This document shows, one piece after another, positions 46,074-58,657 of a stretch of 64,000 bases of DNA (its first letter is position 1; each line of letters starts with the position of its first letter). Origin of the DNA: Actinacidiphila oryziradicis (GTDB lineage Bacteria > Actinomycetota > Actinomycetes > Streptomycetales > Streptomycetaceae). The DNA is taken from NCBI RefSeq assembly GCF_005047355.1, contig NZ_SUMC01000007.1:186001-250000 (forward strand), in the 5' to 3' direction. Under the pieces are notes generated by a model, which saw only the letters and a program-made list of their open reading frames with translations, was not told where the DNA came from and made no database searches. The position numbers and the translations under genes are program-made.

Positions 46074-46598
46074 ATGGCAGTGGAGGACCTCGGCAAGCTC
46101 GATCTGCCGAGCGGACATCTGTATGCCTGCGATCCGTTCGTAGCCCTCGACCGAGAGAGCGCGGCCGCCTACTCCGCGAGCGTGCCAGCGGGCAGCTATC
46201 CGGTCCAGGTCGCGCGGGTCCGGCAGGAGGGGGCGTCGGGCTCGCGGGTGGTAGCCGTGAAGCTGGTGATCTGGGATGAGCCAGCATTCACCTGGGAGGT
46301 CGATGACGATCAGCCCGGCTATGGGGTAGATGCCGGTGCAGGCTGCTTCATTGACCTGGAGTCAGTGCCGGTCTTCGAACGGCTTCACCAGGCTGGAGCC
46401 GACAGCCCGGTCCGGGCGGCATTCCGTCGGACCGACGACGAGGCAGTCGCCACGATCCTGGCTGACGCCGCCAGCGGACACGCGATGGCGATCTTCAGTT
46501 CCGGCGTGGGAGACGGCTACTACCCGACCTGGATCGGCCGCGCCGTCTCTGGACACGTCGTGTGCTTCGTCACCCAATTTATGAACCCCGAGGCCTAA
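46074..46598 (+). CDS. DUF4241 domain protein
   Basis: 174 aa. DLGKLDLPSGHLYACDPFVA, SVPAGSYPVQVARVRQ and GAGCFIDLESVPVFERL, IFSSGVGDGYYPTWIGR match DUF4241, found in bacterial toxin-immunity type loci. A possible N-terminal piece (LDTIFTDGATIETG) sits in the +1 frame from ATG 45994, so either the gene starts at ATG 46074 or a frameshift near 46065 has shortened it. Confidence 0.75.
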   Translation: MAVEDLGKLDLPSGHLYACDPFVALDRESAAAYSASVPAGSYPVQVARVRQEGASGSRVVAVKLVIWDEPAFTWEVDDDQPGYGVDAGAGCFIDLESVPVFERLHQAGADSPVRAAFRRTDDEAVATILADAASGHAMAIFSSGVGDGYYPTWIGRAVSGHVVCFVTQFMNPEA

Positions 46599-47300
46599 CG
46601 CAATACCTCACCACCCCTGCTCGGACACTGGGCGGAGTGCGAGGATCTGCGTCTCGAGGTCGAGCACGAGAGAGGAGACCCAGAGTGCAGATCGCCGGCT
46701 GCGACCTATATCTCAATCACGGGATCTTGGGCGTAGGGTCCACGGATTGGCTTCCCCGAACTCTCGATCTCGGAAGGGTGCGTATCCTTGATTTTTCCGA
46801 CCGCATGAGTCTCGGGAGAGGCTGTGACCTGGGATTGAACATAGCGAACATGTTCAGGATGTTGGGTCTCAGACTCGCCGGATCACCCGATCGTGCATCC
46901 GGATGGCGCGCCTGCACCTCCACTACGAGCGCCACCAGCCCGCGGGAGGGGGCGGCCCCTACCCGGCGGTGCCGTCCCCACCTCCATCCACTCAGGCGCC
47001 CGACGGGCGCACATGTGGCTTGAGGGCACGATGAGGATCTCAGGGGCCCACGCGAACACCGACTCTGCGTCGTGCGCCCGCGGTCCGCTCGACGCCCCAC
47101 GGTGTAGCTGCCAGGAGCTGGGGACGTCACCGGCTCGACAGCCGCCCGCGACAGATAGGCGTCGCCGCAGGCCCCTGGGCTTGAGCGACTGCCTTCGAGC
47201 GGCCGGGCGCTAAAGCGGCCCGTCCTGGGTGCTGCTCCGTCTCGATGCGAGGTGGCAGGATTCTCGGCGACGGGGTGCGGGTATGTGGGAGGGCTAATCG
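46599..47300. other. 702-bp stretch with gene remnants only
   Basis: No intact gene. It includes a 95-bp truncated copy of the 48.6-kb nuclease gene (46994-47088). A short open frame from GTG 46685 (VQIAGCDLYLNHGILGVGST...) has no recognisable family. Confidence 0.5.
46994..47088 (+). pseudogene. truncated duplicate of the PD-(D/E)xK-like nuclease N-terminus
   Basis: Encodes GARRAHMWLEGTMRISGAHA NTDSASCAR (in two parts), nearly identical to GARRAKMWLEGTMRISGAYA NTDSASCAR at 48567-48657, then diverges into unrelated sequence. The DNA match is about 95 bp with five or six differences. It is the scar of a duplication spanning the ADP-ribosylglycohydrolase gene. Confidence 0.85.
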
Positions 47301-48449
47301 ATGACGAGCAGATCCTGGGAAGACCGAGCGTTCCTGGCATTCCAGCGGTCTCGAATACGGGGCTGCATGCTTGGTGGAGCGCTGGGGGACGGGATGGGAA
47401 ACCCCGAGGGGTGGTTCCAGTCCTTTCGGGCGGGTGTCACGGAGCCGGATGCCGATGCGGAAGGCGTGGTCGCCCAGGTCACCGATGCCACTCAGATGAC
47501 GCTGTTCACCGCCGAAGGACTGATCCGGGCCCGAGTCCGCGCCATCGTCAAGGAGGTCGACGCCGGTCAGGAGACCTTCTTCATCCACGATGCGTACCTG
47601 CGGTGGCTTGAGACGCAGGAGTACAGCGGCCCGCCGTCCGCTCGGGGGTCCTCCGACATGGACACAGCGCAGCACGATCGGGTTCGGTCCGGATGGCTGA
47701 GGCAGCAGACATGGCTGTACGCCCGACGCTCCCCTGGAAAGGCCTCCCTGTCCGGACTGAGGCACGACTTCATCCCTCATCCCGACACTGAGCTTGACGG
47801 CAGCCCGGGCCGCGTGAACCCAGAGTCGAAGGGCTGCGGCACCGTGATGCGCTCAGCCCCGTTCGGGCTGACCGGCTTTGACCCGGAGCGGACCTTCAGA
47901 GTGGCGGCGAATAGCGCCAAGATCACGCACGGCCACCCCACCGGTTACTACGCCGCCGGCACGTTCGCAACCATCATCGCCTACATCCTGGAAGGCTGCC
48001 CCATTGAACGTGCGACCCACCATGCGATGTGGCACCTCGCCCAGCACCGCGGACACGAAGAGACGACCACAGCGCTACGAGCGGCCGTCGACCTAGCCGC
48101 CGAAGGCCGCCCGACCATTGAGAAGGTGGAATCCCTCGGCGCCGGCTGGGTGGCAGAGGAAGCCCTCGCCATCGCGTTGTACTGCGCTCTCGCAGGGGGT
48201 TCAGTCAGAGAGGCGCTGCAGCTCGCGGCCAACCATTCTGGCAACGGCGACTCCACCGGAGCGGTGTGCGGCAACCTTCTCGGCGCGTACCACGGCGATG
48301 TGGGTCTGCCCACCGACTGGCTCGCCGTAGTCGAGGGCCGGGGCGTCATCAGCGAACTCGCGGACGACTTCGACACGCGCTTCCACTCGGACGAGGACAC
48401 TCGCCGCCTGTGGATGGGGCCGTCTCTGCAACGCTACGAGGTGCCGTAG
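47301..48449 (+). CDS. ADP-ribosylglycohydrolase (DraG/ARH) family protein with altered metal ligands
   Basis: 382 aa, full-length: GCMLGGALGDGMG near the start, ESKGCGTVMRSAPFGL, SAKITHGHPTGYYAAG, GWVAEEALAIALYCAL. Family members remove ADP-ribose using two metal ions held by TDDT and (G)DSDSTG motifs. Here these read TDATQM (Asp to Ala at residue 63) and NHSGNGDSTG (Asp to Asn at residue 315), so two ligands are lost. It may bind ADP-ribosylated ligands without cleaving them. It lies 44 bp upstream of the nuclease operon. Confidence 0.88.
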   Translation: MTSRSWEDRAFLAFQRSRIRGCMLGGALGDGMGNPEGWFQSFRAGVTEPDADAEGVVAQVTDATQMTLFTAEGLIRARVRAIVKEVDAGQETFFIHDAYLRWLETQEYSGPPSARGSSDMDTAQHDRVRSGWLRQQTWLYARRSPGKASLSGLRHDFIPHPDTELDGSPGRVNPESKGCGTVMRSAPFGLTGFDPERTFRVAANSAKITHGHPTGYYAAGTFATIIAYILEGCPIERATHHAMWHLAQHRGHEETTTALRAAVDLAAEGRPTIEKVESLGAGWVAEEALAIALYCALAGGSVREALQLAANHSGNGDSTGAVCGNLLGAYHGDVGLPTDWLAVVEGRGVISELADDFDTRFHSDEDTRRLWMGPSLQRYEVP

Positions 48450-48492
48450 GCGCCAGTCTGTGTCTTCCGATCGAACCTGAATTTGACCGTGA

Positions 48493-49140
48493 ATGCTCGG
48501 ACGACCTGTGCCGCGCATTACGCTGGTCGCTGTGGCAGTGGGGGAGGATGCTCACCTCAAGGGGTTCTCAGGCGCCCGACGGGCGAAGATGTGGCTTGAG
48601 GGCACGATGAGGATCTCAGGGGCCTACGCGAACACCGACTCGGCGTCGTGCGCCCGCCGATTGACTTTGGCCTGGCCGCACGGCGGCCAGACGTTCTCCT
48701 TCGACCTGGGCGGCGCGATGCGAGGCGCGCCATACCGCGGGGACATGTTCTGCGCCGAGGTGAAGAACTACCAGCACGCCAGCGACCAGGGCACGCAGTT
48801 CGACGAGTTTGTCGCCAAGTGTTATATCGCTTGTCAGACGGGCCACCTTCTGAGTGACCACCTCATGTGGATCACTTGGGCCCCTTTCCGGGCTAACAGT
48901 TGGGCGCAGTTGGACTCTCCCAAGCACGTGGAGTCGGCGGTACTTCAGCACAGAGACCGCGTCTTCGGAACTGATGACATGGCTGTCGCCCGGTCCCGGA
49001 TGGCTCCTGAGGTTGTCGAGATGGTCGCCGACCGGCTGTGGCTGATCGTCTTGTCAGAGAAGCAGGAGACGCTTGTCCCCCTGAAGGACTGGGAAGCCAT
49101 CGTGGCTGCCGAGCTGATCCGCAAGGGAGAGCAGTGGTGA
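48493..49140 (+). CDS. putative PD-(D/E)xK-fold nuclease (215 aa)
   Basis: SFDLGGAMRGAPYRGDMFCA EVKNYQHASDQGTQFDEFVAKC (two parts) shows Asp71 or Asp84, then Glu89-Val-Lys91 in a hydrophobic strand: the D...ExK core of restriction-like nucleases. Later HLMWITWAPF and LSEKQETLVP suggest the remaining strands. Starts at GTG 48511 or 48529 are also possible. Its stop overlaps the GTG of the partner gene by 4 bp, so the two are co-translated. I do not recognise the family. Confidence 0.68.
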   Translation: MLGRPVPRITLVAVAVGEDAHLKGFSGARRAKMWLEGTMRISGAYANTDSASCARRLTLAWPHGGQTFSFDLGGAMRGAPYRGDMFCAEVKNYQHASDQGTQFDEFVAKCYIACQTGHLLSDHLMWITWAPFRANSWAQLDSPKHVESAVLQHRDRVFGTDDMAVARSRMAPEVVEMVADRLWLIVLSEKQETLVPLKDWEAIVAAELIRKGEQW

Positions 49141-50555
49141 ACCAGGCGTCGCAGGCGATCATGGCAGCGCTGGACGATCCGGACCCCCGGCGTCCCTTCA
49201 CACTGGTGAAGGACCTCATCGGGCGCCAGTTGCGGCGGATGGACCCCCGTGCCGAGGTCATTCCAACCGGCTTCTTCAACCACACCTATGCCCCCGACAT
49301 GGTGATCCGCTGGCCCCAGGTGGCCCGGACTCCGGACCGCTACGTCTACCTCAGGACGACGGCGAACCCGGCCGAGCTCCATGAGGACATCACCCGGCTC
49401 CAGTCCAAAGACCGCCCGATGATCCTCTCGCTGGGCGAGATCGAAGCCTCTGCCTCCGAACTCCAGCCCGCAGCCACCGAGCACCAAGCCCTGCTCTTGG
49501 ACACGCCGGCCTTCGGTGAGCTGCTCCCGACGCAGGACACCCCCAGCATCCCGCGGCTCATCTCCAGCTCGGTAATCGAGGGAGGACGCGGCGCGTTTGA
49601 CGGCCCCTCCACCGCACGGTTCACAAACACGGTGGCCACCGGCGTGGCAGCGGCCCGCGAGGGTTCCGCAGGGCTGACGCGCACCGCTCTGGACGCAGTC
49701 GCCGCACAGATGGTCCCCGAGGTCGCCGACCGCATGACGGCCTTCATGGCCGCCCTTTGGCAGGGCGGAGGCGCCACCCTGGCCTCCTTCCCCGGCACCC
49801 TGCGCGGTTCCGGCCAGCTGGACGAGTCCACCCTCGCCTACCTCCTCAGCGCCGAAGAGATCCCCGACACCAACTTCTGGGACAGGCTCCTGCGCCTGAT
49901 CAGCCTGCCGCTTCTCCTACGTACGCCGGTCCGCGACCCCGACAACCTGCAGCACCTGATGCGTCCCGCCGTGCGGCACTGGCAAAGCCACGCATGCAAG
50001 ATCGTCCCTGGAGCACCTCCCCACGCACCAATCGGACCGTGGCGCTGGGCCGTGGATTCGGGCCACCTGGTCCTGCAGACACCGCGCTTCCGCACCTACG
50101 TAGCCCAGACCCGCAAGGACCTCGAGGCGGCCGAGACCTACGACGAACCCGGCCTCGATGACGTACGCAACCGGGCTGACCGCTTCTCCACACCCCTGAC
50201 ATCGATCAGGATGCTCGTCACCAACCGCCGCATCGGCTACGACGGCCGCGGCGACAACGTTGTACACGACGCGCAACTCGACGGGATCAGCGAGGCACTC
50301 GGCCAAGCGGAGACTGTCATCGAAGTCGACGCGCCAACCCGCTCGGGCGCCGTCCTCCGTTGCAGCTTCACTCATCACCTCGCTAGCGCCCGCGGCGCCC
50401 GCAGCCAGGTGCCGCTCGATGAGCTCATCGGTACCGCCGCTCGGCTTCTCTACGACCTCACCGACCACGAAGCCGACCAACTCGCTGGGCTGCTCGGTCC
50501 ACAAGGGCAACCAGTAAGCGCGCCCTGGAACCAGCCTCCGCTGTTCGAACCCTAG
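49137..50555 (+). CDS. partner protein of the putative nuclease, unknown family (472 aa)
   Basis: GTG 49137 overlaps the nuclease stop. The N-terminal part (LVKDLIGRQLRRMDPRAEVI, FNHTYAPDMVIRWP...RYVYLRT) has a D...x-R pattern like a degenerate nuclease fold without the catalytic E-x-K. The middle is helical (TRTALDAVAAQMVPEVADRM) and the C-terminus carries LDGISEALGQAETVIEVDAP and LYDLTDHEADQLAGLL. No membrane segment or ATP motif. It may be the specificity or regulatory subunit of a two-gene system. Confidence 0.6.
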   Translation: MNQASQAIMAALDDPDPRRPFTLVKDLIGRQLRRMDPRAEVIPTGFFNHTYAPDMVIRWPQVARTPDRYVYLRTTANPAELHEDITRLQSKDRPMILSLGEIEASASELQPAATEHQALLLDTPAFGELLPTQDTPSIPRLISSSVIEGGRGAFDGPSTARFTNTVATGVAAAREGSAGLTRTALDAVAAQMVPEVADRMTAFMAALWQGGGATLASFPGTLRGSGQLDESTLAYLLSAEEIPDTNFWDRLLRLISLPLLLRTPVRDPDNLQHLMRPAVRHWQSHACKIVPGAPPHAPIGPWRWAVDSGHLVLQTPRFRTYVAQTRKDLEAAETYDEPGLDDVRNRADRFSTPLTSIRMLVTNRRIGYDGRGDNVVHDAQLDGISEALGQAETVIEVDAPTRSGAVLRCSFTHHLASARGARSQVPLDELIGTAARLLYDLTDHEADQLAGLLGPQGQPVSAPWNQPPLFEP

Positions 50556-50609: not shown

Positions 50610-50740
50610 ACGAGGCGCCGGAATCCCAGCTCCGACCCAGGGGACAACTGACCGACCGGTAGATGGGGCGATCGGACATGACGCCCCGACCGTCGTACGC
50701 CAACCTGCGGGAACGAACTCGGGCCTGGGGCGCGCCCTGG
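50610..50740 (+). repeat. left inverted repeat flanking the STAND-TPR gene
   Basis: Contains ggggacaactgaccgaccgg, then cgatcggacatgacgccccg and accgtcgtacgcc. The reverse complement of this block matches 53955-54075 over roughly 125 bp at about 80 percent by eye. It lies between the nuclease-partner operon and the STAND gene start. Confidence 0.8.
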
Positions 50741-50893
50741 TTTCGTGGTGCAGTCGCCGGTGTTTCGCATGCGCTCGGTGAGCTCACCGGCCCAGGCGCC
50801 AATGACGTCTGCCGCGCCCTGAACCACCGTCATACTGCTGGTGGGTGTGGCGTCGAATGCGCCGCGGCGGCAGGACGGGCAGAAGGTGGAGGC

Positions 50894-53878
50894 ATGTCAG
50901 GGTCGGGTCGTGAGCGTCTGTCGCGCGGCGAGCTGATACGGCAGCGTGCGCGGGCGCAGTTCGTGGGCAGGCGGGCGCAGTTGTCGCTGTTCGCGGAGAA
51001 CCTGGCGAGGGATCCGCTGTCGGAGGGGGATCCGGCGGAGTTCCTGTTCCATGTGCGCGGGGTGGGCGGGGTGGGGAAATCCACGTTGCTGAGGCAGTGG
51101 CGGGAGGCGGCCCAGCGGGCGGGTGCGGTGTCCGCGGTGGTGGATGAGAACGATGTCCACGGCGTACCACAGGCTCTGTCGGAGCTGGCCCGGCAGCTAG
51201 CTGAGGAGGCGGGCCCGCTCAAGGGGTTCGACCGGGCAGCCGAGCAGTTCCGCCGGGAGCAGGAGGTGGCCGCCGAGCCGGTACCGGCGGACGGCGCCGG
51301 TGCGGCCGAGGGCGGTGCGTCGTTGTCGAGCCGGTTGGTGACGCAGGCCACGCTGGGGGCGGTGTCGCTGATTCCCGGGGCCGGGGTGGTGACCGCGATG
51401 GCGAACCCGGAGGCCGCGGCGCAGGGGCTGGACCGGCTGCGGGCCGGTGCCGGGGCCCGGGGGCGCCGGGGGCGCGGAGGTGACGCGGCCGGGGTGAGCC
51501 GGGCGTTCGTCGCTGAGCTGGACCGATTGTGCGGGCAGTACCGGTGGGTGGTGCTGTTCTTGGACACCTGGGAGCACACCGGCCGCTATCTGGACGGGTG
51601 GTTGCGGGATCTGCTGCAGGACACGTTCGGGCCGCTGCCGGCCAACGTGATGGTGGTGCTGGCCGGACGTGACGAGCTCGCGGAGCGGGAATGGGCACCG
51701 CTGCGGGCCCTGGTGGCGGACGTACCTCTGGAGGTGTTCACCGAGGCCGAGACGCGGGCGCTGCTGGCCGCACGCGGGGTGACCGAGCCGGGGGCGGTGG
51801 AGGCGGTACTGCAGCTGTCAATGGGGCTGCCACTGCTCGTGGAACTCTGCGCGCTGGCCCGGCCCACGACCGCCGGGGACGTGGACCAGGGCGGGGACGC
51901 CGTGGACGCGGCGGTCGAGCGTTTCGTGCAGTGGATCACCGACCCGCGGCAGCGGGAAACGGTGCTGGCGTGCGCGCTGGCGCCGCAGCTGAACGAAGAC
52001 GTGTTCACCGCCGCCGCACCACAGGAGGCACAGGGCTTGTGGGGATGGCTGTGCGGGCAGCCGTTCGTCAGCGGCCACGGCGACTTCAAGCAGTATCACG
52101 CAGTGGTGCGCGCAAGCATGGTGCGCCGCCAGCGCACCCATTCGCCCCAGCGCTGGACCACGGCGCACCTCCGGCTCGCCGACGCCCACGCCGCCTGGCG
52201 AACCGACGCCGAGCAGGGCCTTCCCGAAGCGAAGCAGTGGGGCGATCCCCTGTGGCGCCGGCACCGCCTGACCGAGACCTACCACCGGCTGTGCGCACAC
52301 CCCGCAGCCAGCCTTGAAGCAGCACTGGAGCAGACCGCTCATGCCGCCGGACGGGACACGGCGGTCCTGCGGCAATGGACCGACACCTTAGAACAAGCAG
52401 CCCGCGACACCGCCGACCTCACTCTCCTCCCCTGGGCCGACCGCCTCCAGAACGCCGCCGCCGACAGCGATCCAGCCCTCGCATCCCTCACCGCCCTGCT
52501 GACCCACGGCCATCTGACCCCCGCCACCCGGGCCTGGGTCCACACCTACCGCGGCCGGCGCCTCTTCCTCGCCGACCGCGACGAGGAAGCCCTCGCCGAA
52601 CTTGACCGCGCCATCGCCGCCGACCCTCACAACCACCGCGCCTGGGCCTACCGCGGCGACGTCCACTGCTGGAACGGCCGCACCGATCAGGCAGTTACCG
52701 ACCTGACCGCCGCCCTCGCCCTCGACCCCACGTACGCCTGGGCCCTCGGCTCCCGGGGGGATGCTCACCGGCAGGCGGGCCGCTACGACGACGCCATCAC
52801 CGACCTGACCGCCGCCCTCGACCTCGACCCCACGTACGCCTGGGCCCTCGGCTACCGAGGGGATGCTCACTCGCAGGCGGGCCGCTACGACGACGCCATC
52901 ACCGACCTGACCGCCGCCCTCGACCTCGACCCCACCCTCGCCTGGGCCCTCGGCCGCCGAGGGGATGCTCACCGGCAGGCGGGCCGCTACGACGACGCCA
53001 TCACCGACCTGACCGCCGCCCTCGACTTCGACCCCACCCTCGCTTGGGCCCTCGGCTCCCGGGGGGAGGCTCACTCGCAGGCGGGCCGCTACGACGACGC
53101 CATCACCGACCTGACCGCCGCCCTCGACCTCGACCCCACGTACGCCTGGGCCCTCGGCTCCCGGGGGGAGGCTCACCGGCAGGCGGGCCGCTACGACGAC
53201 GCCATCACCGACTTCACCGCCGCCCTCGACCTCGACCCCACGTACGCCTGGGTCCTCGGCTCCCGGGGGGAGGCTCACCGGCAGGCGGGCCGCTACGACG
53301 ACGCCATCACCGACTTCACCGCCGCCCTCGACCTCGACCCCACGTACGCCTGGGCCCTCGGCTCCCGGGGGGAGGCTCACCGGCAGGCGGGCCGCTACGA
53401 CGACGCCATCACCGACTTCACCGCCGCCCTCAACCTCGACCCCACCCTCGCCTGGGTCCTCCGCTCCCGAGGGGTCGCCCACCGGGAGGGCGGCCGCTAC
53501 CTACTTGCGCGGGAGGACTTTGAGCGGGCTTCCGCATTAAAACCTGGGGATCCTGGCCTGCCGTTCGAGAAGTTGCTGCTGGACACGGTGACGTCGGGGC
53601 CCGCGGCATGCGTGGAGCAGTGGACCGAGCTGCTCATTTCCCCGGTGGAAACACCGAATGGGGATGCGACCAGGTTCTTCGGCCTGTTCCGGGTGCTGCT
53701 CCTCGAACCTGAAAACAACGTGGCGGAGGCAACCGAGGTGTTCCTCTCAGCAGGCCCGAACCGCGACGCTGTCACCGACCTGCGCCACTACCTGGCTGAG
53801 CTCTCCACTGTGGGTGGCGAACTGGCGGACCGCGCGCGGCAGTGCCAGCAGCTCATCGCGGAGCATGCCCCAGAATGA
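50894..53878 (+). CDS. STAND-type P-loop ATPase with near-identical TPR array
   Basis: 994 aa from ATG 50894 (RBS AAGGTGGAGG). Walker A GVGGVGKSTLLRQW near residue 56, Walker B VVLFLDTWEHTGR near 220, and GLPLLVELCALA (GLPL motif) define a STAND/NACHT-like NTPase. Residues ~570-875 hold nine TPRs, seven almost identical (GRYDDAITDLTAALDLDPTY). The C-terminus is helical. The effector domain is not obvious; a ~50-residue N-terminus precedes the P-loop. It has two TTA codons (52388, 53537), making expression bldA-dependent. STAND-TPR proteins act in defence or signalling. Confidence 0.85.
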   Translation: MSGSGRERLSRGELIRQRARAQFVGRRAQLSLFAENLARDPLSEGDPAEFLFHVRGVGGVGKSTLLRQWREAAQRAGAVSAVVDENDVHGVPQALSELARQLAEEAGPLKGFDRAAEQFRREQEVAAEPVPADGAGAAEGGASLSSRLVTQATLGAVSLIPGAGVVTAMANPEAAAQGLDRLRAGAGARGRRGRGGDAAGVSRAFVAELDRLCGQYRWVVLFLDTWEHTGRYLDGWLRDLLQDTFGPLPANVMVVLAGRDELAEREWAPLRALVADVPLEVFTEAETRALLAARGVTEPGAVEAVLQLSMGLPLLVELCALARPTTAGDVDQGGDAVDAAVERFVQWITDPRQRETVLACALAPQLNEDVFTAAAPQEAQGLWGWLCGQPFVSGHGDFKQYHAVVRASMVRRQRTHSPQRWTTAHLRLADAHAAWRTDAEQGLPEAKQWGDPLWRRHRLTETYHRLCAHPAASLEAALEQTAHAAGRDTAVLRQWTDTLEQAARDTADLTLLPWADRLQNAAADSDPALASLTALLTHGHLTPATRAWVHTYRGRRLFLADRDEEALAELDRAIAADPHNHRAWAYRGDVHCWNGRTDQAVTDLTAALALDPTYAWALGSRGDAHRQAGRYDDAITDLTAALDLDPTYAWALGYRGDAHSQAGRYDDAITDLTAALDLDPTLAWALGRRGDAHRQAGRYDDAITDLTAALDFDPTLAWALGSRGEAHSQAGRYDDAITDLTAALDLDPTYAWALGSRGEAHRQAGRYDDAITDFTAALDLDPTYAWVLGSRGEAHRQAGRYDDAITDFTAALDLDPTYAWALGSRGEAHRQAGRYDDAITDFTAALNLDPTLAWVLRSRGVAHREGGRYLLAREDFERASALKPGDPGLPFEKLLLDTVTSGPAACVEQWTELLISPVETPNGDATRFFGLFRVLLLEPENNVAEATEVFLSAGPNRDAVTDLRHYLAELSTVGGELADRARQCQQLIAEHAPE
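52722..53440 (+). repeat. tandem 102-bp near-identical TPR-coding repeats
   Basis: Seven units with the invariant cgggccgctacgacgacgcc and gccgccctcgacctcgaccc. Changes fall at recurring positions: Thr-Tyr or Thr-Leu, Ser/Tyr/Arg after Leu-Gly, Asp/Glu, Arg/Ser before Gln, and Leu/Phe in TDLTAAL. These are helix surface positions of a TPR groove. Confidence 0.92.
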
Positions 53879-53954: not shown

Positions 53955-54075
53955 CGGACCCCAGAGCTCGTTTCCACAGGTCGGCGTACGACGGTCGGGG
54001 CCTCACGTCCGATCGCCCTACCTACCGGTCAGTCAGTTGTCCCCTGGTGTCCGAGCTGCGATTCCGGGGCCTATC
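53955..54075 (-). repeat. right inverted repeat flanking the STAND-TPR gene
   Basis: Inverted match to 50610-50740: ggcgtacgacggtcggggcc, then gtccgatcgccctacctacc and ggtcagtcagttgtcccctg on the plus strand. It begins 77 bp after the STAND stop. With the left copy it encloses a 3.4-kb unit. Confidence 0.8.
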
Positions 54076-55285: not shown

Positions 55286-58200
55286 ATGATTCGTCAGTAC
55301 CACTCCCAGAGCTGTGGTGACGACTATCAGGTGGGGGCACCTATGGCACGGGCAGCAAATTGGCTCGCCGACTCCGTGGCCGTGTTCGGTGCGGCTTGCG
55401 GGGCAAAACTCGCTGGCCCAGGCGAGCGGGAGGCCGCTATCCGTGCCCCGTTGGAAGTTCTGCTCAGCACGGCTGGCGCGCGGTTGGGCGTACCTGCCGT
55501 CTTCCACGACGAGGTTCGCGATACCGAACGGGGGGTACGCCCGGACTACGGCGTCAGCGTTGGTGGGACGATCACCGGCTATGTGGAGGTCAAGGCCCCC
55601 AGCAAGACTGTCGACCCGGCTGTGCTGCGTGGGCACGACAAGGTGCAGTGGGAGCGCCAGCGGGATCTGCCAAACCTGCTCTACACCAACGGTACTGAGT
55701 GGCGCCTCTACCAGAACGGTGATCTGCGCCTGGTCGTGCGTTTCACCGGCGACCTCAACGACGGTAAGGTCGCCGCTCCTGCGGAGTTCGAAAAGCTCCT
55801 GGTGGACTTTCTGGTCTGGAAGCCTGAGCCGATCACCACCATCGGGGCGCTCGTCAAGGCGGTGGCCAGGCTGACGCGCTTGCTGCGTGGTGAGGTACTG
55901 GATCAGCTCGCAGCCGAGCATGCGGCCGTACGCGGCGGCGCCGACGAAGGAGAGCAGCCGTTTCTCGGGCTGGCCGCCGAGTGGCGGCAGATGCTGTTCC
56001 CCCAGGCCGGTGAGGCCACTTTCGCCGACGGGTACGCACAGACCGTCACGTTTGCGTTGCTGCTGGCCCGGACCGAAGGGATCACCGTCACGGGCGAGTC
56101 GCTGCACACCATCGGAGAGAAGCTGGGCGCGGACCACTCGCTGATGGGCCGGGCGCTGCAGCTGCTCACCGACTACGTGGCCCGCGACTTCAGGATCACC
56201 CTCGACCTGCTGGCCCGCACCGTCGATGCCGTCAACTGGCCTCGAATACGCCGGGGACGCCGGGACACCTACCTGCACCTGTACGAACACTTCCTTGACG
56301 AGTACGACCCTGACCTTCGCAAGCGCTCCGGCTCGTACTACACCCCGGTCGAGGTCGTCGAGCAGATGGTCCGGCTCACCGACGACATCCTGGTCACCCG
56401 GCTGGACAAGCCGCGCGGCTTCGCCGACCCCGGCGTCTTCACCATCGATCCCGCGATGGGCACTGGCACCTACCTACACGCCGTGCTGGAACGGATCGCC
56501 GCTAACGCCGCGGCCCACGACGGGCCGGGGGCGGTCAGTGGGGCGCTCACCCGCGCTGCGGGCCGTGTCGCCGGGTTCGAGCTCCAGATGGGGCCGTACG
56601 CAGTGGCGGAACTGCGAACCGCCGAACAACTGAACCGCTACCAGGCTGCCCCGCCGAATGGCGGCATAAAACTATACGTCACCGACACCCTCGACGACCC
56701 CTACGTGGCGGCCACCCAGTTCAGGCCCGCACTTCGGCTGATCGCTGCCGCCCGCCGCAAGGCCAACGAAATCAAGGCCCGCTCCAACGTCACCGTCGTC
56801 ATCGGCAACCCCCCGTACGCCGAACTCGCCAACGGCGCCGGCGGCTGGGTAGAGAACGGCGGCGCCGACATGAAGGGCAAGCGCGGCGCCAAAGCCATCC
56901 TCGACGACTGGTACACCCCCGGCGCCGCAAAATTCAAGGCCAAGCTCAAAAACCTGTACGTCTTCTTCTGGCGCTGGGCCACCTGGAAGGTGTGGGAGTC
57001 CACCCCCAACAACGAGGGCGGCAACGCCGGCGTCATCTGCTTCATCACCACCTCCGGCTACCTCACTGGCCCGGCGTTCACCGGCATGCGCGAGTATCTG
57101 CGCCGCTACGCATCCGAGGGCTGGATCATCGACTGCACCCCCGAAGGTCAGACTCCGGACGTTCCTACGCGCATATTCCCGGGCGTGCGCCAGCCGCTGG
57201 CGATCGGCGTCTTCGTCCGCCATGCCGACGCTGACACAGACACGCCGGCCCGCATCCGCCACCGCACGTTGACCGGCCGGCAGGCCGACAAGTTCGCCGC
57301 GCTGGCCGCCGTCGAGTTGGACGACGACGGTTGGCGCGACTGCCGCACGGTCTGGACCGCCCCGCTGACCCCGGCGAGCACTAGCCAGTGGGACACCTAT
57401 CCCGCGCTCGACGCGCTGATGCCCTGGTACTCGCCCGGCGTGTTCCCCACCCGCACATGGGTCTACGCCCCCAACCGCGACATCCTCCACAGCAGGTGGT
57501 CGGCGCTCATCGGTGAAAGTGACCGCGGACGGAAGGCGCAGCTCTTCAAGGAGGGCCGCGACGCCAATCTCGACAAGGCCAAACCGCCCCTGCCCGGCGA
57601 CGACACCTGCCCCGCTCCGTCAACGCCGATCGTCCGGGAGACCAACAGCCAGCCCGCCCTCGTCCGAGTCGGATACCGGGCCTTCGACCGGCAGTGGATC
57701 GTCGCCGACCCACGCGTGATGGACATGCCTCGCCGCGACCTGTGGGCCGCCCGAATACCGGGGCAGGTGTTCATCATCGAGCAGCACCGCAAGCCGATCC
57801 AGTCAGGTCCGGGCGTGATCTTCTCGGCTCTGATCCCCGACTTCGACCACTTCAAGGGCTCCGAAGGCGGCAGGACCCTGCCGTTCCTGCACCCCGACGG
57901 GAAGCCCAACCTCGCCCCCGGCCTCAGAGCCGCGCTCACCAGCCGACTCGGCACCGAAGTCACGGACCCGGACATCCTCGCCTACATCGCCGGTGTGACG
58001 GCACACCCGGCCTTCACCGCGACCTTCGCCGATGAACTGACCACCCCGGGGATCCGGGTGCCGGTCACCACAGACCCGGTGCTGTGGCACAAAGCCGTGC
58101 AGCTGGGCCGGCAAGTCCTCTGGCTGCACACCTACGGGAAGTGCTTCATCGGCCCGGAGCGGCCCGAGGAAAACGTCCGTCTCCCGCAGAGCGACCCGCG

Positions 58201-58657
58201 CCGCCCGCTGAGCCTGGCACCGATCACCTCCATGCCCGAGACCATCAACTACGACGGGGACCGCCAGGTCGTCACAGTCGGGGACGGCGAGTTCGGACCG
58301 GTCACCCCGCAGGTCTGGGAGTATGCCGTCGGCGGACGCAATGTCGTCAAGGGCTGGTTCGGCAACCGCAAGAAGGAGCCTGGCGGCCGACGCGGCTCGC
58401 CGCTCGATGACCTGCACGTCACAGCGTGGGACCCGGACTGGACCAGCGAGTTCATCAACCTTCTCACGGTACTGACCCGCCTGGCCGATCTTGAACCCGA
58501 ACAGGATCAAACCCTGGCGTCCATCCTCACCACCGATGTTCTCACCTACGACGACCTCGCCCCCGCCGGCGTGCGCTGGCCACACACCCCAGCAGACCGC
58601 AAGCCACGCTTCTCCCTGGCGTCTGTACGCTCCGGTAACGACGACACCTTGATCTAG
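55286..58657 (+). CDS. type ISP-like restriction-modification enzyme (N6-adenine methylase plus nuclease)
   Basis: 1123 aa. The N-terminal nuclease core has RPDYGVSVGGTITGYVEVKA (PD...E-V-K, about 86-104). The middle is a helical spacer, then a SAM-dependent N6-adenine methylase with YYTPVEVVEQMV, motif I DPAMGTGTYLHA (about 388) and motif IV NPPY (about 508). The C-terminal ~500 residues should recognise the target, as in type ISP enzymes. No SNF2/DEAD helicase domain is seen, unlike LlaBIII. ATG 55343 (MARAANWLADS) is an alternative start. Single-polypeptide systems of this kind defend against phage. Confidence 0.85.
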   Translation: MIRQYHSQSCGDDYQVGAPMARAANWLADSVAVFGAACGAKLAGPGEREAAIRAPLEVLLSTAGARLGVPAVFHDEVRDTERGVRPDYGVSVGGTITGYVEVKAPSKTVDPAVLRGHDKVQWERQRDLPNLLYTNGTEWRLYQNGDLRLVVRFTGDLNDGKVAAPAEFEKLLVDFLVWKPEPITTIGALVKAVARLTRLLRGEVLDQLAAEHAAVRGGADEGEQPFLGLAAEWRQMLFPQAGEATFADGYAQTVTFALLLARTEGITVTGESLHTIGEKLGADHSLMGRALQLLTDYVARDFRITLDLLARTVDAVNWPRIRRGRRDTYLHLYEHFLDEYDPDLRKRSGSYYTPVEVVEQMVRLTDDILVTRLDKPRGFADPGVFTIDPAMGTGTYLHAVLERIAANAAAHDGPGAVSGALTRAAGRVAGFELQMGPYAVAELRTAEQLNRYQAAPPNGGIKLYVTDTLDDPYVAATQFRPALRLIAAARRKANEIKARSNVTVVIGNPPYAELANGAGGWVENGGADMKGKRGAKAILDDWYTPGAAKFKAKLKNLYVFFWRWATWKVWESTPNNEGGNAGVICFITTSGYLTGPAFTGMREYLRRYASEGWIIDCTPEGQTPDVPTRIFPGVRQPLAIGVFVRHADADTDTPARIRHRTLTGRQADKFAALAAVELDDDGWRDCRTVWTAPLTPASTSQWDTYPALDALMPWYSPGVFPTRTWVYAPNRDILHSRWSALIGESDRGRKAQLFKEGRDANLDKAKPPLPGDDTCPAPSTPIVRETNSQPALVRVGYRAFDRQWIVADPRVMDMPRRDLWAARIPGQVFIIEQHRKPIQSGPGVIFSALIPDFDHFKGSEGGRTLPFLHPDGKPNLAPGLRAALTSRLGTEVTDPDILAYIAGVTAHPAFTATFADELTTPGIRVPVTTDPVLWHKAVQLGRQVLWLHTYGKCFIGPERPEENVRLPQSDPRRPLSLAPITSMPETINYDGDRQVVTVGDGEFGPVTPQVWEYAVGGRNVVKGWFGNRKKEPGGRRGSPLDDLHVTAWDPDWTSEFINLLTVLTRLADLEPEQDQTLASILTTDVLTYDDLAPAGVRWPHTPADRKPRFSLASVRSGNDDTLI

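Follow-up and report, generated by a model that had tools for sequence, protein, structure and literature searches.

A two-gene unit of Actinacidiphila oryziradicis that probably encodes an undescribed nuclease system against invading DNA

Do two overlapping genes of the actinomycete Actinacidiphila oryziradicis, neither of them resembling a named family, form a nuclease system of their own, and what would such a system act on? The genes lie in a stretch of 64,000 nucleotides (hereafter the window; contig NZ_SUMC01000007.1, positions 186,001 to 250,000) of an 11.5 Mb genome. The first-pass annotation, made from the letters of the window, proposed an undescribed two-gene nuclease system, and the present analysis supports it: no library names either protein, the genes co-occur and a nuclease fold is predicted. 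The genes are inherited together, their copies lie on mobile DNA and beside antiviral genes, and no catalogued family matches them, so the pair probably represents a system, not yet described, that destroys invading DNA. To the reading that they specify a heteromeric defence nuclease targeting DNA we give a probability of about 0.58. Coordinates are collected in Table 1.

The smaller gene was originally read as an open reading frame of 215 amino acids (aa; 48493-49140) bearing the motif E89-x-K91. Its homologues begin at codon 14 of this frame and therefore the likely start is the GTG at 48532, which gives a protein of 202 aa with the motif E76-x-K78; the PD-(D/E)xK-like character proposed for it was thus borne out by motif and fold, while the residue numbering was not. 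In 20 homologues with 24 to 88% identity to the window protein, residues E5, D58, E76 and K78 never vary and Q86 hardly does. Invariance of the first four down to 24% identity excludes chance. The protein has the D...(D/E)-x-K catalytic motif conserved in the PD-(D/E)xK superfamily, and its AlphaFold2 (AF2) model (predicted local distance difference test (pLDDT) 82.5, predicted template-modelling score (pTM) 0.80) contains the restriction-endonuclease-like alpha-beta-beta-beta-alpha-beta core. Structure prediction, which had been suggested as a check on the proposal, therefore returned a nuclease fold. The top matches by Foldseek and VIA-align were LmuA, AF1548, XisH, NucS/EndoMS, Card1/Can2, Cap4, FokI and BspD6I, nearly all of them PD-(D/E)xK enzymes, and Avs nuclease domains, MspJI and AspBHI were also among the matches. 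LmuA of the Lamassu system is the nearest solved fold (Z 10.5, 153 residues, root-mean-square deviation 5.1). Since the best Foldseek E value was only 2.3e-3, the fold assignment rests on the consistency of the match list together with the motif. The 202-aa protein is accordingly predicted, from sequence and model, to be a PD-(D/E)xK nuclease with an intact catalytic site.

The 472-aa partner, first described as belonging to no recognised family, indeed matched no library, but its N-terminal third is now predicted to form a PD-(D/E)xK domain that has degenerated. Its AF2 model (pLDDT 87.2, pTM 0.83) has a PD-(D/E)xK-like domain at residues ~1-150, a helical middle at ~155-282, preceded by GGxG152, and a C-terminal alpha/beta domain at ~283-440. 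Three rows from plasmid records were left out of the alignments used for structure prediction. Residues 1-150 resemble BspD6I, FokI and NucC (VIA Z 8.5-8.9), and most of the top matches are endonucleases, with a best Foldseek E value of only 0.17. T44, N48, H49, P53, D54, W59 and R68 are invariant and cluster in this domain. The PD54 element is invariant, and an aromatic-L/V-R/K triplet (residues 71-73; [YF]-L-R) occupies the place of (D/E)-x-K in 22 of 22 sequences, so the complete catalytic motif of the superfamily is absent. On the modelled fold the domain is best read as a degenerate PD-(D/E)xK domain, although a rearranged active site using D84 (21 of 22 sequences) is conceivable. Because the fold keeps PD54 and lacks (D/E)-x-K, the pair looks like one active and one degenerate nuclease subunit in these models. 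A common origin of the two proteins was sought by hhalign of their alignments, which gave nothing. Of the folded parts of the partner, the C-terminal domain varies most (mean pairwise identity 28% vs 42% for residues 41-100); it resembles RdgC weakly (Z 5.1), which can be taken only as a lead.

The two genes are obligately paired and are found together essentially without exception. Among 395 Streptomycetaceae genomes, searched for both genes, the partner was present in 22, the nuclease in 20, both in 19 and neither in 372. Co-occurrence had been set as a second check on the proposal, and the four genomes with a single gene hold fragments or a doubtful match (a 61-residue nuclease fragment in G352, partner fragments in G021 and G183, and a doubtful partner match in G260). 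Every intact copy of either gene is adjacent to the other on the same strand. The translational coupling read from the GTGA junction of the window is a general feature, as the frames overlap at 21 of 23 loci (by 4 nucleotides (nt) at 16 and by 1 nt at five), and are separated by a 3-5 nt gap at the other two. Distances between nucleases correlate with those between partners (Mantel r 0.92 over 20 loci; none of 10000 permutations reached this value), while the partner diverges faster, with a mean identity of 30% against 45% for the nuclease. Decayed copies are frequent (G262, G352, G361 and K. papulosa, which has a split partner). In G361, at both ends of the chromosome, an intact nuclease stands beside a partner shortened to 255 aa. 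Outside the Streptomycetaceae the pair is rare, and its finds there include Arthrobacter plasmids and one prophage.

The expectation of a neighbourhood typical of phage defence was confirmed by comparison with control regions. SduA adjoins the pair at two loci (L036 and L043, lying 13 bp downstream in the latter), AbiEi/AbiEii genes stand beside it at two (L047 and L080) and TmtA at one (L039). A complete HsdMSR operon ends 22 bp upstream of the pair in L080, type I restriction-modification (R-M) genes stand beside it in L098 and a type I R gene lies ~5 kb away in L036. The neighbours in L049 are a cytosine (C5) methyltransferase and an AIPR/MzaE protein. A type ISP homologue follows ~90 bp directly 3' of the pair in L033, on the Arthrobacter plasmid pA40H2; type ISP genes occur at this locus and in the window only, in the latter after the STAND gene. 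PADLOC models were run on 126 neighbours within 4.5 kb of the pair at 17 loci and on 121 control proteins from 16 regions of the same genomes, mostly ~80 kb away. Neighbour genes were called by a simple frame-composition script and the counts are approximate: 255 models were matched beside the pair (many redundant for one protein) and five in the controls (best E 2.7e-26).

The pair is also carried by mobile DNA. It occurs on plasmids, in integrative-conjugative-like elements with FtsK-type and GntR/UTRA genes (L043, L045 and L050, with L044 assigned by its FtsK gene) and in one prophage, between dnaB-type helicase and terminase genes (names read from translations). A scan of viral contigs gave no match with the nuclease and one with the partner, namely this prophage, whose own proteins used as queries returned only itself. 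Both proteins were also compared by tblastn with 50,697 phage records, without a match. With one carrier among viral contigs and none in the phage records, the pair is not a core gene of mobile elements.

Neither protein matched Pfam, NCBIfam, PADLOC or PHROGs above cut-off, singly or through its relatives where these were scanned. No PADLOC-DB 2.0.0 model was matched by either at E ≤ 1, and sequence-profile searches of the PDB found no relatives. Two Pfam near-matches, zf-DNL and ATP-grasp, fell far below cut-off and were rejected. A literature search, with preprints and most subscription journals outside its coverage, turned up no account of the pair. Actinobacteria have contributed few of the catalogued defence systems: only three of 131 DefenseFinder-detectable systems were from, or tested in, this group (PMC10482375). 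One actinobacterial prophage system, gp29-gp30, is a predicted (p)ppGpp synthetase (PMC10482375); our tblastn searches gave no match among phage records, whose inclusion of the gp29-gp30 record was not checked. Despite the lack of library matches, the two genes clearly form a unit, its active site is open to test, and its links to defence genes and mobile elements are strong.

Several known systems share part of this architecture. LmuA is, like the 202-aa protein, the small PD-(D/E)xK effector of a defence operon and has the closest fold, but identity to it is 8%, and no SMC/P-loop ATPase of the LmuB kind was matched in the partner or its relatives. The CBASS effector Cap4/DUF4297 is likewise a PD-(D/E)xK endonuclease (Foldseek E 3.5e-3; Z 7.0), whereas the 202-aa protein consists of one nuclease domain, with no SAVED match, and no cyclic-nucleotide synthase was seen beside it. 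Hachiman combines a nuclease effector with a larger partner in two genes (HamA chains Z 5.7-6.3; PMC12278908), but no helicase family corresponding to HamB was matched in the partner described here. Shedu SduA is also a PD-(D/E)xK defence nuclease, yet neither protein of the pair matches PF14082 (SduA, DUF4263) or the PADLOC SduA models. Heterodimeric R.BspD6I, in which each of two subunits has a PD-(D/E)xK domain, is, with FokI and NucC, closest to the partner N-terminus; unlike that enzyme, the partner domain lacks the (D/E)-x-K half-site and most loci lack a cognate methyltransferase. Methyltransferases of three families (PF00145, PF02384 and PF01555) were absent within ~12 kb in 11 of the 15 genomes checked, being present in G004, G031, G278 and G225 only, and the pair is therefore not a classical type II R-M system.

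An active nuclease paired with a pseudo-nuclease subunit that is larger and evolves faster suggests a heteromeric complex that cuts DNA. The two folds, the intact catalytic site, the obligate pairing, the conserved coupling and the defence and mobile-element context were obtained computationally; a physical complex, DNA as its substrate, a trigger and protection against phages are what we infer. The 202-aa subunit would be the catalytic endonuclease, with which the 472-aa partner would associate through, or alongside, its degenerate N-terminal domain. The faster-evolving regions of the partner may recognise or grip the target, and the complex would cut phage, plasmid or conjugative-element DNA as it enters. 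The pair would travel as cargo of mobile elements and in defence islands. A narrower version, which we hold tentatively, is an undescribed restriction-type complex of one active and one dead PD-(D/E)xK subunit that acts without an ATPase or a cognate methyltransferase and tells self from foreign DNA by a new feature. If true, it would allow direct tests of how ATP-independent nucleases tell self from non-self.

Some results weigh against a defence nuclease of this kind. Family scans identified no ATPase, helicase or known DNA-binding domain in the partner, so sensing is unexplained, and as most copies lack a methyltransferase no mechanism of self/non-self discrimination is evident. The Z values of the partner domain, all below 9, are not conclusive. 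Per-locus enrichment in defence genes is modest (E < 1e-30 at 5 of 17 loci vs none of 16 controls; one-sided Fisher p 0.026), and distribution is narrow, with one match besides the window in a phylum-wide sample of 396 genomes.

The scarcity of methyltransferases is what would be expected of a modification-dependent (type IV-like) restriction system, in which the partner would act as the reader of modified phage DNA that the nuclease then cleaves, and MspJI and AspBHI are among the fold matches of the nuclease. No SRA, YTH, EVE or other known modification-reader domain was matched in family scans of the partner, however, and the copies in L049, L080 and L033 adjoin DNA methyltransferases, a dangerous arrangement if a host mark triggered cleavage; on balance this explanation is unlikely. 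The pair could also serve a neighbouring type I or type ISP system as an accessory restriction or anti-escape component and not stand alone, as its positions directly after HsdR in L080, just before the type ISP gene of L033, next to the type I genes of L098 and near the type I R gene in L036 would allow. Such dependence is harder to reconcile with the 11 genomes that have no methyltransferase nearby and with type ISP genes at two loci only, and we regard it as improbable.

Two overlapping, obligately paired and mobile genes also recall a toxin-antitoxin module, with the nuclease as toxin and the partner neutralising it, perhaps by using its degenerate fold to block the active one. A three-domain partner of 472 aa would be unusually large for an antitoxin, and because G361 retains an intact nuclease beside a partner of 255 aa a simple toxin-antitoxin module is disfavoured; we rate it slightly below an accessory role. 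Lowest of all we place a function in DNA processing (recombination, replication or transfer) for the mobile elements themselves. Carriage on plasmids, integrative elements and one prophage is frequent and the partner C-terminus has, besides its weak likeness to RdgC, weak viral matches, but the pair is also found in chromosomes, at loci with Shedu, AbiE and R-M genes where such elements are lacking, and is almost missing from viral sequences. A heteromeric defence nuclease remains the preferred reading of the pair.

Table 1. Positions of the pair and its neighbours in the window
Feature	Position	Strand	Basis
Putative catalytic subunit, PD-(D/E)xK nuclease, 202 aa	48532..49140	+	GTG start set by homologues; AF2 model; fold matches
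Predicted active site of nuclease: E5, D58, E76, K78, Q86	D58 48703-48705; E76 48757-48759; K78 48763-48765	+	Invariance among homologues; fold
Partner subunit, 472 aa	49137..50555	+	AF2 model; VIA alignment; residue conservation
GTGA, 4-nt overlap of nuclease stop and partner start	49137..49140	+	Sequence; translational coupling
Remnant of second nuclease 5' end (91-bp direct repeat)	46991..47081	+	Repeat comparison, 96%
ADP-ribosylglycohydrolase (ARH) homologue, two metal ligands lost	47301..48449	+	PF03747, E 1.2e-59
STAND/AAA_16-TPR protein, defence-type neighbour, within 112-bp inverted repeat	50663..53878	+	Family scan
Type ISP restriction-modification enzyme	55286..58657	+	PF18135, E 1.4e-77; PADLOC REase_MTase_IIG, E 8.9e-286
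DUF4241 protein, just 5' of ARH	46074-46598		PF14025, E 1.6e-30

The other genes reported around the pair in the window were recovered as described: the STAND ATPase and type ISP enzyme by family matches, and the ARH homologue with two lost metal ligands by its PF03747 match and comparison with a paralogue of the same genome (L003). The window protein reads TDATQM and NHSGNGDSTG where the paralogue has TDDTQM and NHSGDSDSTG; with TDDT changed to TDAT and DSDST to NGDST, two metal-binding Asp residues are lost, and the complete Asp set of an active ARH hydrolase is lacking. A C-terminal ARH gene fragment elsewhere in the genome (L002, G000:C330:46920-47133; 89% identical over 72 aa) has lost more of the motif (NHSGNSASTG), which indicates, as far as its sequence goes, that the ARH subfamily is in decay in this genome. 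The ARH and STAND genes are neighbours of the pair at this locus only: a scan of the other 25 loci showed no relative of either close to the pair, and both were rejected as system components. The type ISP enzyme, recurring only in L033, was likewise rejected as an obligate partner.

The duplication scars noted at first are two repeats. The 91-bp direct repeat at 46991-47081 (96%) matches 48567-48657, in the 5' part of the nuclease gene. The STAND-TPR gene is flanked by the other, an inverted repeat of 112 bp (50613-50723 and 53961-54072; 88%). Both show local rearrangement, which is common for such accessory genes. Isolated nuclease 5'-end fragments were also found in G352 (beside a transposase-like gene, L081) and G361 (C1:6920145-6920231); together with that of the window they indicate that breakage after the nuclease 5' end recurs. 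A third, partial copy of the STAND-flanking repeat (~56 bp, 83%) is present ~33 kb further on (G000:C357:272895-272950), the copies suggesting, by sequence, a mobile cassette.

Two other groups of neighbours were observed. PIN-domain-like proteins of ~409-471 aa are encoded a few kb from the pair at three loci (L040:6574-7803, L044:7474-8751 and L048:13258-14673), convergent with it in two of them; three pair neighbours match PIN_12, and the PIN-like gene is a possible further defence gene. Downstream of the pair in L040 and L041, a recurring cluster encodes a DUF4062 protein, an N6_Mtase-like protein and the products of two unnamed genes, and is possibly another undescribed defence operon.

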